From the NCBI GenBank assembly GCA_024710005.1, contig JANJVQ010000024.1:1-64000 (forward strand): a stretch of 64,000 nucleotides of DNA, read 5' to 3'. Both the position numbers and the translations under genes were made by a program. Each line of letters starts with the position of its first letter. Within the stretch, counting starts at the first letter, position 1. Origin of the DNA: Paludibacter sp. (GTDB taxonomy: Bacteria; Bacteroidota; Bacteroidia; Bacteroidales; Paludibacteraceae). Below, piece by piece: positions 14,079-18,922 of this stretch. The notes beneath the pieces were generated by a model that worked only from the letters and a program-made list of their open reading frames with translations, did not search any database and was not told the DNA's origin.

Positions 14079-15290
14079 ATGAAGAAACTAAATTTAATCA
14101 TATTCAGTAGTTTGTTTGCGCTTCTTTCGTATTCGCAATTACCTCAGAGAACCGTTAATTTCAGTAATACAATAGGAAGTGCAGCTAATTTTACATCCAT
14201 CTCGGCTGCTCTCTCAGGTATTTCAACGCCCGCAACAGTCTGGGTGGCAGCAGGGCAATACACAGAAGATGAGATTATTGTACCCTCGGGCGTGACCCTG
14301 ATAGGAGGTTTTCCTGTCAGTGCGACATCGTATAGTGATAGAATTTATCCGGGAAATGCCAATTCAAATCAGCAATCGGTTTTAGATGGCGATTATGCGC
14401 ACCGGGTGGTAACTGTATATGGTACGCTGGATGGATTTGTGGTTACCAAAGGCTATGTTTTTGATTCCATTCCAAATTCTATCAATGGTGCGGGTGGCGG
14501 TGTGTTGATTGATGGGGGTGTTGTGATGAATTGTATTATCCATAATAATGTTGCCTCGGAAGTGACACCTTCTCCTGCAACAATTCCGGGTACTTTTGTG
14601 GCAAGTATCGGCGATATTTATTGTACTGACGGAACTATCTTGCAGCCGGTTTATTCCCTGAATCAACAGGGGAAAATCATTGCAACACTTAATGGAGGTA
14701 TCCCGGCGGGAAAGGTGGCGCAAGGTATTGTTTTTTATGTGGATCCATCGCCTACTGCAAATAAATTTTATGTAATGGCGAAAGTGAGCACATCGAAGAA
14801 AGTGTTTTTTAACCCTACATTTGATGTGCCAGGAATACCTAATACTGCCTTGTCGAATGATGCCAGAGCGGATTTTAACGGACGCGCAAATACAGATTCA
14901 CTGAATGCATATATTCCGAGATGGATAGTGCAAATGGGGGGTAATCCCTGGTATAATCAGGATTATGCTGCAAAATATGTGAATGAATATAACATTCCGG
15001 CAGGCACACAGGGGCAATGGCATCTTCCTTCGGGAGGAGAACTTTATAAGATGTGGGAGGTGCATCCGCAAATGGAGGCATGTGCGCGTGATGTGCTGGG
15101 CTGGACAACTGCTCAGACACCTATGTTTAAAAAGGATTTTTACGTTTCATCAACAGAATATAATGCTGGTGAAATATGGGCTTTAACCACCTATTCTTAC
15201 CCCTGGGGAGGCTGGGGTCTGGCAAGGGGTAACAAAACACAGAGTGGGTATATTGTTCCGGTTTCAGTAAAGAGTCAAACTCAGGATTGA
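14079..15290 (+). CDS. Secreted protein: N-terminal beta-helix segment plus DUF1566-like C-domain
   Basis: 403 residues from the ATG at 14079, which gives a compact signal peptide (MKKLNLIIFSSLFALLSYSQ). An upstream in-frame start at 14028 would only add 17 charged residues. Residues about 20-165 look like the start of a right-handed beta-helix: SISAALSGISTPATVWVAAG, VPSGVTLIGGFP, LDGDYAHRVVTVYGTLDGFVV, GAGGGVLIDGGVVMNCIIHNN. The rest resembles DUF1566/Lcl_C: GDIYCTDGTILQPVY, GIVFYVD, then WHLPSGGELYKMW and FYVSSTEYNAGEIWAL. No sorting tail is present at the C-terminus. The two genes that follow appear to continue the same beta-helix. Probably surface-exposed; the role is unknown. Confidence 0.75.
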   Translation: MKKLNLIIFSSLFALLSYSQLPQRTVNFSNTIGSAANFTSISAALSGISTPATVWVAAGQYTEDEIIVPSGVTLIGGFPVSATSYSDRIYPGNANSNQQSVLDGDYAHRVVTVYGTLDGFVVTKGYVFDSIPNSINGAGGGVLIDGGVVMNCIIHNNVASEVTPSPATIPGTFVASIGDIYCTDGTILQPVYSLNQQGKIIATLNGGIPAGKVAQGIVFYVDPSPTANKFYVMAKVSTSKKVFFNPTFDVPGIPNTALSNDARADFNGRANTDSLNAYIPRWIVQMGGNPWYNQDYAAKYVNEYNIPAGTQGQWHLPSGGELYKMWEVHPQMEACARDVLGWTTAQTPMFKKDFYVSSTEYNAGEIWALTTYSYPWGGWGLARGNKTQSGYIVPVSVKSQTQD

Positions 15291-15297
15291 TTGATTT

Positions 15298-16197
15298 ATG
15301 ATACAAAAGATAAAAATATTGCTCCTATTGTTAAACAGTTTTGTTTCTCTTTCAGTGGTTTACTCACAAACTGCTGAGGGTGGAGGTGTTTATATCAGAA
15401 ATAACGGAAAATTGATAAACAGCATCGTGACGAACAATTATGCTGTTACAGGTTTTGGTGTAGCTGGTACTGCAGGTGAGGTAATTAACAGTACAATCAA
15501 AGATAATTTTTATCTGAAAACTTCTATTGTAAATCCGGGTGATTTGTTTTTTGACGATGGGGTAGTCTATACACCTCAATATGATACAAATGGAAATCTT
15601 GTTTTTCCAGAGGGATATAGTGCTTCGAATGTTGTGGGTGTATGCTTTTGGAGTAATACCAATAACAATTATATGGATGGACGTTCCTGGATTGTTGCGG
15701 TGGACGAGTCCAATACAATTTGGTGTCCGAATGGTATGACTGGAGGAAGTGGATACAACCCGATTGATATTCCGGGATTGTTTAACTTTCCAAATGCAGA
15801 GGCTGCTTTGATGGATTATGAGGGAAGAGAAAATACCTATCTGATTGTAAATGAACCTGGTTTTGTAGAGAATCCCACGATGTCATATGCATTAACAATA
15901 AGCAATTGTGCGGCAAAATACAGCTATGAATATAAAAGATTGTCAGGAGAGGAAGCAACATGGTTCCTGCCAACGTTAGGACAGTTAAGGGTGTTGGAGA
16001 ATGAACTAACGCTTGTTAATCATGTGCTTATGAAGTTAGGGAAAACAACGATCTCAGGTCGTCATTGGTCATCAAATGAGTATTCCCGTCAACAGGCGTG
16101 GTCTTATTTTTTCCCGCATACGTCTCAACAACCGGCAAATACAACTAAATCAGTCAGCCTGAAAGTTCGACCGATGTCAATTGTAGCACATAATTAA
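15298..16197 (+). CDS. Secreted protein: short beta-helix segment plus DUF1566-like C-domain
   Basis: 299 residues, starting 7 bases after the previous stop, with its own signal peptide (IKILLLLLNSFVSLSVVYSQ). Residues about 26-70 are beta-helix rungs (GGGVYIRNNGKLINSIVTNN, GEVINSTIKDN). The remainder parallels the preceding protein: GDLFFDDGVVYTPQYD, GVCFWSN, then ATWFLPTLGQLRVLE, HWSSNEYSRQQAWSYFF and a final KVRPM, the DUF1566-like signature. It is therefore a paralogue of the preceding protein with a shorter helix segment and no sorting tail. Cotranscription with the next gene is near certain: its ATG follows this stop directly. The function is unknown; the fold suggests binding to a surface or glycan. 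Confidence 0.75.
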   Translation: MIQKIKILLLLLNSFVSLSVVYSQTAEGGGVYIRNNGKLINSIVTNNYAVTGFGVAGTAGEVINSTIKDNFYLKTSIVNPGDLFFDDGVVYTPQYDTNGNLVFPEGYSASNVVGVCFWSNTNNNYMDGRSWIVAVDESNTIWCPNGMTGGSGYNPIDIPGLFNFPNAEAALMDYEGRENTYLIVNEPGFVENPTMSYALTISNCAAKYSYEYKRLSGEEATWFLPTLGQLRVLENELTLVNHVLMKLGKTTISGRHWSSNEYSRQQAWSYFFPHTSQQPANTTKSVSLKVRPMSIVAHN

Positions 16198-18222
16198 ATG
16201 AAATGGTTAAATTACATATTGATGTTTGTTTTGCTGTCATTGAGTTGTACAGCAATAGCACAGACAGCTCCTGTCAGTATAGCGGGTAGCCTGAGTGTGT
16301 CAAATTCAATTGTCGATAATGATCAGAAGTACGATCAGTCCGAACCATCTGTAGTGCTGACTTATTCAGCCGTAAGAGGTGACGTAGTACCTGCCGGAGC
16401 CGGTAATAAGGCAATTCTGGGAACTACAGAGTATAAAGATCATGTAGCCTGGCCAAAGGATGAGTTTTCATATTACGTTTCGCCGGTTACCGATTTTGTA
16501 AATGCCGGAAATCAATCTGTCCCGTCTTATGTTCCTGACAAGGATATAAATGGTAATCCCAGGATATACAATGGCCGGATTGATATTGGAGCAGTTGAGT
16601 ATTCCATGATATTTGACAGAGGTGATGGTATCTGGAATAATATAGCTAAATGGAATGTAGGACGCATACCTACTGAACATGATGTAGTCACCGTTGTGAA
16701 TAAAGCCACGGTGACGAATGTAGACGCTGTTTCAAAATCAATTATTTCGATTGGTGAAGCCGGTAAGATACAGATTGATACCATGGCTCAACTGGAAGTT
16801 AAAACTACAATTAACAATACAAGCCCGGATAAAATTCATATTAAAGCATCTGCTACCTCTCCCAATGGGACATTAATTTTTAGAAACCCATATGCTGTGC
16901 CTGTTTCAGCAAGCGTTGAAATGTATTCCATGGCATATATCAATGAAAATTTACCGGATGATGATTTAGATAAATTCAACTGGCAGTTTTTTGGTATCCC
17001 GATGCGGTCTCTAAGTCCGTTGCCTCCCGAACCTGATGCTGGCTGGTATGTAAGATGGCTGAGGGAGGATTCGACGGGTTATAATAAATGGCAGAATCTG
17101 ACGGTAAACGATATGCTTACTTCGTTCAGAGGATATGAATTAGCTCAGCAGGATGAAAAGATGTATACTTTTAAAGGGATTCTCGAGAATAGGGATACAA
17201 CCATATTGTTGACAAAATCTGCGGTTCCATATTATGCCGGTCAGCATTTATTGGCAAACCCATACACAGCCTCAATCAATATCAGTGATATGGTGTTTGG
17301 TGCCAATACAGAAGCAACTGTTTATATATATCATTCAGGATCTTATGCCGATTGGAATGAAGATCAGGAAAACGGTCGGCTCGGTACGGGAAGGGGACAG
17401 TACCTGGCTGTACCTCAGAACGCAGCAAGCATGATTTTACCTGCTATTCCATCGATGCAGGGATTTATTGTCAGAGCAACGGCAAATCATGGAAGTGTTT
17501 CAATTCCTTATGCTTCGGCAACCAGAAATACAACCCGGCAAAGAGTAAGAAAAATCAACCGGATTAACCCGTATCTGACTGTTGAATTAACCGACCAACG
17601 GGTGTTGGATCGCGTTTGGCTGTTATATGAACCTACGGCGGGTAAGCAGTTTGACAATGGATGGGATGGCTTTAAAATGTTTAGTAAAGAAGGGACAGCC
17701 ATGATTTATGCCAATGAGCCGGCAGGAGATCTTCAGGTGAATACGGTGAGTGATTTTAACGATATTTATTTACACTTTTTACCCGGCAAAAATGATAATT
17801 ACACACTGAGAATTGTAAACAGCAATATGGGTGAAGTGTATCCCGATTTGTATCTTGTAGACATGCATGAAGGTAAAGTCGTTAATATTCAACCGGACAC
17901 CACTATTTATAACTTTTCGGTGACGGGAACAGGTACGTCTCCTAATCGGTTTAAAATTACGACAGGTTCTGATACAAATCTATCCGGTGATGATTTAATC
18001 AAAATTTACAGTGTGGATGATAGCAGGGTTATCATTCATAATTTAACGGAAGAGGACGGAACTTACGCCCTTTATGATATTGCTGGCAGCATGTTGAAAA
18101 CAGGCTATTTGAAGGCAGGGACATATAGCTCATTTAAAGTTCAGCACAACGCGGGCGTAATGATTTTAAGGGCAAATGCGGGTGCAGTTCGTAAAACAGA
18201 GAAGATATTGATCAGGAAGTAA
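16198..18222 (+). CDS. Secreted protein with beta-helix end segment and type IX secretion sorting tail
   Basis: 674 residues; the ATG directly follows the previous stop codon. A signal peptide (MKWLNYILMFVLLSLSCTAIAQ) is followed by a segment that looks like the last rungs of a beta-helix protein: SNSIVDNDQ, VLTYSAVRGDV, then DINGNPRIYNGRIDIGAVEY (about 115-136), the common end motif of such proteins. A region beginning GIWNNIAKWNVGRIPTEHD resembles the cell-wall-associated repeats found in large Bacteroidota surface proteins. The C-terminus (GVMILRANAGAVRKTEKILIRK) fits a type A type IX secretion sorting domain, so it should cross the outer membrane and be anchored there. It is the only member of the trio with this tail. 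Confidence 0.75.
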   Translation: MKWLNYILMFVLLSLSCTAIAQTAPVSIAGSLSVSNSIVDNDQKYDQSEPSVVLTYSAVRGDVVPAGAGNKAILGTTEYKDHVAWPKDEFSYYVSPVTDFVNAGNQSVPSYVPDKDINGNPRIYNGRIDIGAVEYSMIFDRGDGIWNNIAKWNVGRIPTEHDVVTVVNKATVTNVDAVSKSIISIGEAGKIQIDTMAQLEVKTTINNTSPDKIHIKASATSPNGTLIFRNPYAVPVSASVEMYSMAYINENLPDDDLDKFNWQFFGIPMRSLSPLPPEPDAGWYVRWLREDSTGYNKWQNLTVNDMLTSFRGYELAQQDEKMYTFKGILENRDTTILLTKSAVPYYAGQHLLANPYTASINISDMVFGANTEATVYIYHSGSYADWNEDQENGRLGTGRGQYLAVPQNAASMILPAIPSMQGFIVRATANHGSVSIPYASATRNTTRQRVRKINRINPYLTVELTDQRVLDRVWLLYEPTAGKQFDNGWDGFKMFSKEGTAMIYANEPAGDLQVNTVSDFNDIYLHFLPGKNDNYTLRIVNSNMGEVYPDLYLVDMHEGKVVNIQPDTTIYNFSVTGTGTSPNRFKITTGSDTNLSGDDLIKIYSVDDSRVIIHNLTEEDGTYALYDIAGSMLKTGYLKAGTYSSFKVQHNAGVMILRANAGAVRKTEKILIRK

Positions 18223-18229
18223 ACAAGGG

Positions 18230-18922
18230 ATGAAAGAATTTTTATACATATTATTTTGCGTGGTGATCCTGGGACTTGGAATCATACTCCTGAATTCAAA
18301 GGGAGCTAATGAGCTTTTTCTCACGGATTATCCCGTTTATGTAAGTCCCGGTGTTGATTTTTCCAAGATGAACCATATTAAGAGTACTTATAGTCCTTCC
18401 AAAACAACGCAAACAACAACCCGGAGTCTTATTGGGAAAGATTTGAGTAAAAAAGCGGTTGCAAAAGGAAATACAGTGTTCCCTTCCCAAAGTGGTAATT
18501 CCGGCCTTGCATCTACTTCACTGTATTCAGGAGGATTATTTGATAGCCGTATGAACAGAGCTAATAACTCCGTTACGGGTCAGGGTGTAAATGTGATGCC
18601 TTCCTTGCCGCTGATCAGATCGGGAGAAGGAAGTGCGACTTCAGGTAATCAGAATGGAAGTGGGTTGATTGCAGGAGGTTCTGCTGAGCCTGGAAATGCT
18701 TTCAGGGCATTTGTTCCCTTAAATCCTGTCAATGATTATAGGGAAGGCGACATTATGCATCCCGGAGGAAATCCAGGTCAGGATGACCAATTGGTGAGTG
18801 TTCCTGTTGGTGACGGTTTATTACCCTTGTTTCTGATGGGTGTCTTTTATGTCCTTTTCGCGCTGAAGAAAGAAATGTTTCGTAAAGAAAACAGCATATT
18901 CCATAAAAAAACCGGCTATTGA
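18230..18922 (+). CDS. Membrane-anchored protein with Ser/Gly/Asn-rich middle, unknown function
   Basis: 230 residues, 7 bases after the previous gene. An N-terminal membrane segment (FLYILFCVVILGLGIILL, 4-21) and a C-terminal one (PVGDGLLPLFLMGVFYVLFAL, about 193-213) flank a low-complexity region rich in Ser, Gly, Asn and Thr. The C-terminal PVGDGLLPLFLM...YVLF pattern recurs in short Bacteroidota membrane proteins and is followed by a Lys-rich tail, as in a stop-transfer anchor. No enzyme motif is present. Being last in the four-gene cluster, it may anchor or help assemble the secreted proteins. The function cannot be assigned. Confidence 0.65.
   Translation: MKEFLYILFCVVILGLGIILLNSKGANELFLTDYPVYVSPGVDFSKMNHIKSTYSPSKTTQTTTRSLIGKDLSKKAVAKGNTVFPSQSGNSGLASTSLYSGGLFDSRMNRANNSVTGQGVNVMPSLPLIRSGEGSATSGNQNGSGLIAGGSAEPGNAFRAFVPLNPVNDYREGDIMHPGGNPGQDDQLVSVPVGDGLLPLFLMGVFYVLFALKKEMFRKENSIFHKKTGY

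Follow-up and report, generated by a model that had tools for sequence, protein, structure and literature searches.

Why would a bacterium encode what appears to be one right-handed beta-helix as three secreted proteins, with a sorting tail on the last alone? This arrangement is found in a 64,000-nucleotide stretch of DNA from Paludibacter sp. (GenBank assembly GCA_024710005.1, contig JANJVQ010000024.1, positions 1 to 64,000), referred to here as the window, in which the genes A, B, C, and D lie consecutively on the + strand. An earlier note, made from the sequence alone, had proposed that the first three encode one surface protein in pieces. Our analysis supports the division of one beta-helix over three secreted chains, the last alone with a (weak) sorting tail of the type IX secretion system (T9SS), and the conservation of this split. 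That A, B, and C are also subunits of one heteromeric surface protein, reassembled and exported together, we consider close to an even chance (about 0.48).

Three pieces of one beta-helix

What does each gene contain? A (14079..15290) encodes 403 residues, B (15298..16197) 299, and C (16198..18222) 674; all of these open reading frames (ORFs) are on the + strand and intact. In the ORF list the gaps from A to D are 7, 0, and 7 bp, the first two within the 0-7 bases that the earlier note had given. All four proteins begin with a hydrophobic stretch, and by a hydropathy heuristic, which was used for every signal-like start reported here, those of A, B, and C are probably signal peptides, in agreement with the note's claim that each piece has its own. 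Behind it, A carries the N-terminal start and first rungs of a beta-helix (residues 20-175, 14136..14603, with GGGVLIDGGVVMNCIIHNNVAS close to the end), recognised by a match to a single-chain beta-helix protein, followed by a C-terminal domain (residues 177-403, 14607..15287). B carries about two rungs, QTAEGGGVYIRNNGKLINSIVTNNYAVTGFGVAGTAGEVINSTIKDN (residues 24-79, 15367..15534), which are strongly conserved in five orthologs, and again a C-terminal domain (residues 80-299, 15535..16194). We name this Lcl_C-like, DUF1566-type domain of A and B CTL1; it starts with xGDIxCxDG or similar. In C, a last rung and a choice-of-anchor-Q-like beta-helix end, DINGNPRI...IDIGAVEY (residues 23-135, 16264..16602), precede a C-terminal module (residues 141-674, 16618..18219), of which residues 609-672 form a tail-like end resembling a divergent type A T9SS tail.

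Searches of Pfam and NCBIfam gave only matches below the cut-offs in A, B, and C, namely to Lcl_C, choice-of-anchor Q, and the type A tail. Lcl_C (PF07603, cut-off 34.9 bits) scored 18.8 bits in A, 19.6 in B, and 33.2 in one B ortholog, and its cut-off is passed by a related CTL1 protein at another locus, L173 (53 bits). The domain is also recognised in A and B by our own CTL hidden Markov model, which was trained on 12 A and B sequences, A itself among its seeds (a motif filter had removed two B orthologs from the 14), and in B by its place in the CTL1 tree. The paralogous DUF1566-like ends that the earlier note had read in A and B are present, then, as Lcl_C-like domains, with Pfam Lcl_C reaching only sub-cut-off scores in this genome. 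The beta-helix end of C scored 21.4 bits with NF041518 (cut-off 25) in addition to its match to single chains, and the Paludibacter C proteins span 20.0-23.4 bits, all five below the cut-off. A single weak Pfam match of C to VERL (E 0.02) was rejected as implausible. Sequence searches of the PDB returned only weak matches, to the C-terminal domain (4eps, E 2.5e-4 and 9.5e-5; 8q4e, 0.046).

Right-handed beta-helix proteins with the same start, the same rungs, and a DIGAxE-like end exist as single chains that close with a choice-of-anchor-Q-like end and a T9SS-like tail, and the genus itself has such chains (L015, L016, L019, L023, and L026, ends read by eye). They are one polypeptide in which no CTL1 was seen, whereas here there are three polypeptides with CTL1 at both breaks. 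Which parts of a single chain do A, B, and C represent? Against a panel of seven entries (five of them distinct) drawn from the genus and its order, A aligns with the N-terminal region, its matches stopping at residues 153-203 (best E 1.5e-15, A residues 1-157 paired with residues 1-154 of one chain), B with an interior segment (E 1e-6, 48% over 44 residues), and C with the C-terminal region (best E 1.3e-8, residues 390-512 of 597), all E-values being optimistic because the panel has only seven entries and composition adjustment was off. These matches to start, interior, and end bear out the assignment of opening rungs to A, middle rungs to B, and the end to C that had been made from the sequence alone. 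Mature B starts at the same GGGVY-like rung position in 13 copies, as read from the sequence.

Is C the only piece with a sorting tail? This had been claimed, and the half of the claim that concerns A and B stands: scans with tail models found no recognised T9SS tail on either. The half that concerns C is weaker, its tail scoring 17 bits with TIGR04183 (cut-off 23) and having no PF18962 match. Further proteins of the genus, many of them very long, have the C-terminal module of C too (P0003 match in 35 of 60 genomes, its own included), and three other proteins with the same module pass TIGR04183 (24.9-26.3 bits). In the window's own genome, a 3.24 Mb draft, there are 78 matches to PF18962 (Por_Secre_tail) at E<=0.001. 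None of them is the tail of C, so the standard model overlooks divergent tails of this kind.

Conservation of the split within the genus

The cassette was found in 7 of 48 genomes of the genus, in one of these (G027) only as A and C pieces at contig ends and in another (G010) spread over two contigs, with B cut at a contig end. Orthologs of A occur in 6 of the 36 genus genomes searched for it, the window's own counted, and those of B in 6 of 48. Five further genomes have all three genes intact, at 56-93% identity (in one case with the cassette divided over two contigs), and the A-B-C-D order with its short gaps is intact in L074, L075, L077, and L078. Where the synonymous rate (dS) could be estimated, the ratio of the nonsynonymous rate (dN) to it is 0.04-0.14 for A, B, and C and 0.18-0.19 for D, with dS near saturation beyond the closest relative. 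The rungs of B change more slowly than its CTL domain (dN 0.023 vs 0.042; 0.115 vs 0.135). Judged from these comparisons, the split is old and under purifying selection.

The earlier note had named homologs occurring mostly alone as an observation that would count against a complex. The full-length B homologs listed all adjoin an A: among the matches listed for the genus (6 of 48 genomes), for the distant family described below (4 of 56), and for the order, class, and phylum samples, a full-length B never appeared without an A. Among the listed matches that extend from the rungs over most of the CTL domain, the order sample of 393 genomes yielded the window's own genome and G253, and the class and phylum samples (395 genomes each, all three samples overlapping) the window's own genome alone. 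Any match to the B profile was found in 97, 57, and 70 genomes of these samples, respectively; many match the CTL part only, so the CTL domain itself is common.

The CTL fold is associated with the target proteins of diversity-generating retroelements. Between close orthologs the CTL part is conserved (dN 0.03-0.14), which speaks against A and B being such targets; a template repeat and a reverse transcriptase were not searched for.

A distant version in another family

Does the split occur outside the genus? The profile of A found G253, a genome of another family of the same order, here called f106. Its contig carries, in this order, a PorP/SprF-like gene, A1, B1, A2, B2, C (2690 residues), and a gene for an 1125-residue protein with FGE-sulfatase and fibrinogen-C matches. 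The A1-B1-A2-B2-C order was found in 4 of the 56 f106 genomes searched, G253 and three from two other genera; in one, G872, the fetched stretch ends inside C. By appearance the PorP/SprF-like gene lies upstream in all four, and in G835, the one scored, it reaches 155 bits against a cut-off of 90.55. Near the N-terminus of the f106 C, choice-of-anchor Q (NF041518) is over the cut-off of 25 in G253 (41.2) and G871 (26.5) and under it in G835 (19.2). The two C proteins scanned for a type B tail (TIGR04131, cut-off 35) score 64.3 (G253) and 64.4 bits (G871).

Against the single-chain panel the pieces of the G253 cassette behave much like those of the window. The f106 C starts at a corresponding GAAVKL-like position, as read from the sequence; the Paludibacter C does so less clearly. 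Between the B proteins of f106 and of the window, the rungs are 33-52% identical and the CTL domains 22-37%, with the rungs ahead in seven of eight comparisons. In the CTL1 tree the B domains of both lineages group together (86%) and the A domains weakly so (67%); within f106, B1 (99%), A1 (87%), and B2 (58%) form groups, and A2 forms no clear one (27%).

The two lineages thus have A, B, and the end of the beta-helix in C in common and differ in their anchors, divergent type A in one and, in the two proteins scanned, type B in the other. An ancestral A-B-C cassette with a later A-B duplication in f106 would be the simplest history, transfer of the cassette between the lineages being a possible alternative. 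That such distant relatives show a similar division points to a functional complex of several parts rather than to a broken gene.

The 1125-residue protein lies directly downstream of C in two f106 cassettes (L128:382-3759 and L187:15174-18551, the FGE-sulfatase and fibrinogen-C matches being those of L128), and L186 has an ORF resembling it.

CTL1-ended proteins without a beta-helix

CTL1 is also found at the end of proteins whose N-terminal parts differ, in operons that contain no beta-helix. What do these encode next? We counted neighbors at 27 loci outside the cassettes, cassette loci being excluded, and required the last CTL match of a protein to end no more than 18 residues from the C-terminus. 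Proteins with an N-terminal second CTL (CTL2), L125, and the L170 protein (76 residues beyond the match) were left out; L176, L126 (a cassette locus), and L127 are not in the count, and L121, L123, and L129 overlap loci that were used or excluded. A same-strand secreted (signal-like) protein follows within 57 bp in 13 of 16 CTL1-ended cases and in 0 of 12 with other DUF1566-type ends (Fisher p 1.5e-5, an optimistic value because the 27 loci are top search matches and include mutual relatives). The three misses are L201, where 311 bases are left on that side of the contig, L202, which has no secreted neighbor, and L190, where a 1246-residue CTL-bearing ORF without a signal-like start overlaps.

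In 10 of the 13 cases the downstream protein starts with CTL2. Eight of the 13 partners are complete and not themselves CTL1-ended, five passing the cut-off for a T9SS tail and one falling 0.8 bit short. Three more, the intermediate partners at L173, end in CTL1 and showed no tail in the scan, and the remaining two run off the contig or the fetched stretch. No tail was found on the six upstream CTL1 proteins scanned. CTL1 stands at or near the C-terminus of secreted proteins of up to 1592 residues, with no other recognised tail in those scanned.

Two loci deserve separate description. At L125 (539-4159), CTL1 and CTL2 lie side by side at the N-terminus of one 1206-residue chain, where other genomes have a gene boundary, a fusion that suggests association. 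L173 (G265 contig 11, 1-8313) has five consecutive secreted ORFs, four of them CTL1-ended in a row: the first ends with CTL1, three start with CTL2 and end with CTL1, and the fifth has CTL2 at its start and is cut off by the contig end.

With CTL1-ended, tail-less proteins found in operons that lack a beta-helix, the split beta-helix would be one case of a wider arrangement. Tentatively, and at somewhat long odds, CTL1 could mark a class of multi-subunit T9SS cargo in Bacteroidales, in which tail-less secreted chains are joined to the next-encoded, tail-bearing chain and exported as its passengers. The joining would be non-covalent, by completion of a beta-helix or by pairing of CTL1 and CTL2 domains.

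Gene D and the surroundings

Downstream of C, gene D (18230..18922, +) encodes an N-terminal hydrophobic stretch, a low-complexity linker rich in Ser, Gly, and Asn, and PVGDG with a C-terminal hydrophobic stretch and a basic end. The D of the window has no family match at E<1 in Pfam or NCBIfam; its family shares a P[VIL][GPE]D[GD]-like motif, with copies at L070:6203-6892 and L052:15826-16563. In several cases D-family genes directly follow proteins with the C-type C-terminal module. D may be an accessory of this type A-like module, because the other C-module protein of the window's genome (L070) is also followed by a D-like gene. Elsewhere the link is loose: in a crude test of 19 loci with C-module matches, allowing up to 500 bp downstream, three had a complete small gene whose product is hydrophobic at both ends (L033, L044, and L050) and 13 had none, the open-ended ORFs of L035, L037, and L049 being uncounted and a farther D-like gene of L072 lying beyond the limit. 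In two Paludibacter-like genomes, long proteins matching the C-terminal module of C lie directly upstream of gene A (L053:11029-16533 and L052:12352-15663). Scans for promoters (20 vs 17.9 in shuffled sequence) and terminators (2 vs 3.6) gave about shuffle level.

Discussion

How might three such chains act together? The sources cited here by PMC number were available to us in part, and what we take from them holds for those parts. In the mechanism that we favor, A, B, and C would each enter the periplasm by their own signal peptide. The right-handed beta-helix would begin in A, which has its opening rungs, continue through the two or so rungs of B, and finish with the last rung and the end in C. 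A and B would attach to the stub of C by stacking their rungs on it and cross the outer membrane with C through the T9SS as passengers, because C alone has a T9SS-type tail. Two CTL1 domains would then be displayed on the surface, where they may bind ligands, perhaps carbohydrates; in f106, C would probably have the PorP/SprF-like protein as its anchor partner, in the manner of SprB and PG1035 (PMC9143113). The T9SS moves folded and very large proteins (PMC9251779) and the C-terminal domain (CTD) of a cargo protein is held in the translocon pore (PMC10994853), which makes passengers conceivable. Of two further papers, PMC9936825 concerns non-CTD peptidase genes of a Flavobacterium and is not evidence for passengers, and PMC11969387 deals with short and long tails.

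What weighs against joint assembly and export? The tail of C is below the cut-off in all five orthologs scanned (14.1-22.2 bits), the rungs of A change faster than its CTL domain (dN 0.057 vs 0.034; 0.151 vs 0.079), and the listed A and B profile matches, in which not every long ORF was read, showed no single chain whose rungs are interrupted by CTL1. A review holds the CTD to be necessary and sufficient for T9SS export (PMC10202324), and a CTD-less protein found outside cells has been attributed to vesicles, an alternative route (PMC6247017). The remaining difficulties, together with the lack of a recognised tail on A and B, would also fit A and B being separate ligand-binding proteins that arose from duplicated pieces of a beta-helix gene, are co-expressed with C because they share a role with it, fold alone without completing its helix, and stay in the periplasm or are released, for example in vesicles. 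The second A of f106 has its own N-terminal helix start, so its five pieces cannot stack as one continuous helix. CTL1 is C-terminal on unrelated N-terminal parts, and where it occurs without a beta-helix, stacking need not explain the split. Two CTL1 proteins precede a tail-less neighbor, L122 (628 residues, no family match) and L189 (an OmpA-type lipoprotein) being the two of the eight complete final partners without a tail. AlphaFold2 yielded no usable model of A with seven sequences (pLDDT 31.4) and no interface for mature B joined to residues 1-140 of C (pLDDT 32.7; nine rows, in an alignment that misplaces a few residues). The single surface complex that the earlier note had envisaged is thus a proposal; what holds is the conserved division into three with the last chain alone (weakly) tailed. 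Two points speak against separate proteins: although the helix portion amounts to roughly two rungs in B and one in C, the rungs of B are more conserved than its CTL domain in seven of eight distant comparisons, and both lineages keep the A-B-C order. We regard separate proteins as unlikely, though a serious contender.

A different way out of the tail problem would be for CTL1 itself to be a C-terminal T9SS export signal of an unrecognised kind, with A and B exported independently and meeting C outside. The long secreted proteins that end in CTL1 and lack another recognised tail would agree with this. Related DUF1566-type domains, in contrast, also end proteins that have no secreted neighbor, CTL1 proteins are mostly paired with a tail-bearing neighbor that independent export would make needless, and L125 has its CTL1 at the N-terminus; we judge such a signal improbable. 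Far less credible still is gene decay, by insertions or frameshifts in one beta-helix gene, or an assembly artefact. B and C share a frame with only a stop and a start codon between them in the window and in L074, as a broken gene might, but this relation is not kept in L075, L077, and L078. Each piece has a signal-like start, and the split is conserved with intact genes in two families and under purifying selection, on which grounds we reject decay.

How does the proposed complex of A, B, and C compare with known systems? The type B CTD proteins SprB and PG1035, which are bound to the PorP-like partners SprF and PorP (PMC9143113), resemble the f106 version in its upstream PorP/SprF-like gene and the type B tail on C; the available part of PMC9143113 describes no CTD-less co-cargo subunit. 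The Paludibacter cassette is unlike these systems in having a type A-like module and gene D, and no PorP-like gene was noticed adjoining it. The Legionella collagen-like protein Lcl shares with A and B the terminal domain (PF07603, below the cut-off here), carried on a collagen-like repeat in Lcl and on beta-helix rungs in A and B. In Lcl this domain forms a trimer and binds glycosaminoglycans (PMC11162425), which by analogy would fit both gluing and ligand binding by CTL1. In hitchhiker or piggyback transport, as of hydrogenase by the twin-arginine translocation (Tat) system and in peroxisome import (PMC9251779), a signal-less subunit travels with a signal-bearing one, as we propose here for A and B; the available part of that source does not say this of the T9SS, for which it is our inference only. 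Nothing on split beta-helices or tail-less T9SS co-cargo was found in an open-access collection that covers part of the literature.

What would the arrangement mean? A beta-helix split in nature could be used to find out how few rungs suffice for docking. Recognition of T9SS cargo depends on the C-terminal tail of each exported chain. If A and B do travel with C, cargo predictions based on tails would miss subunits, and the translocon may pass assembled heteromers.

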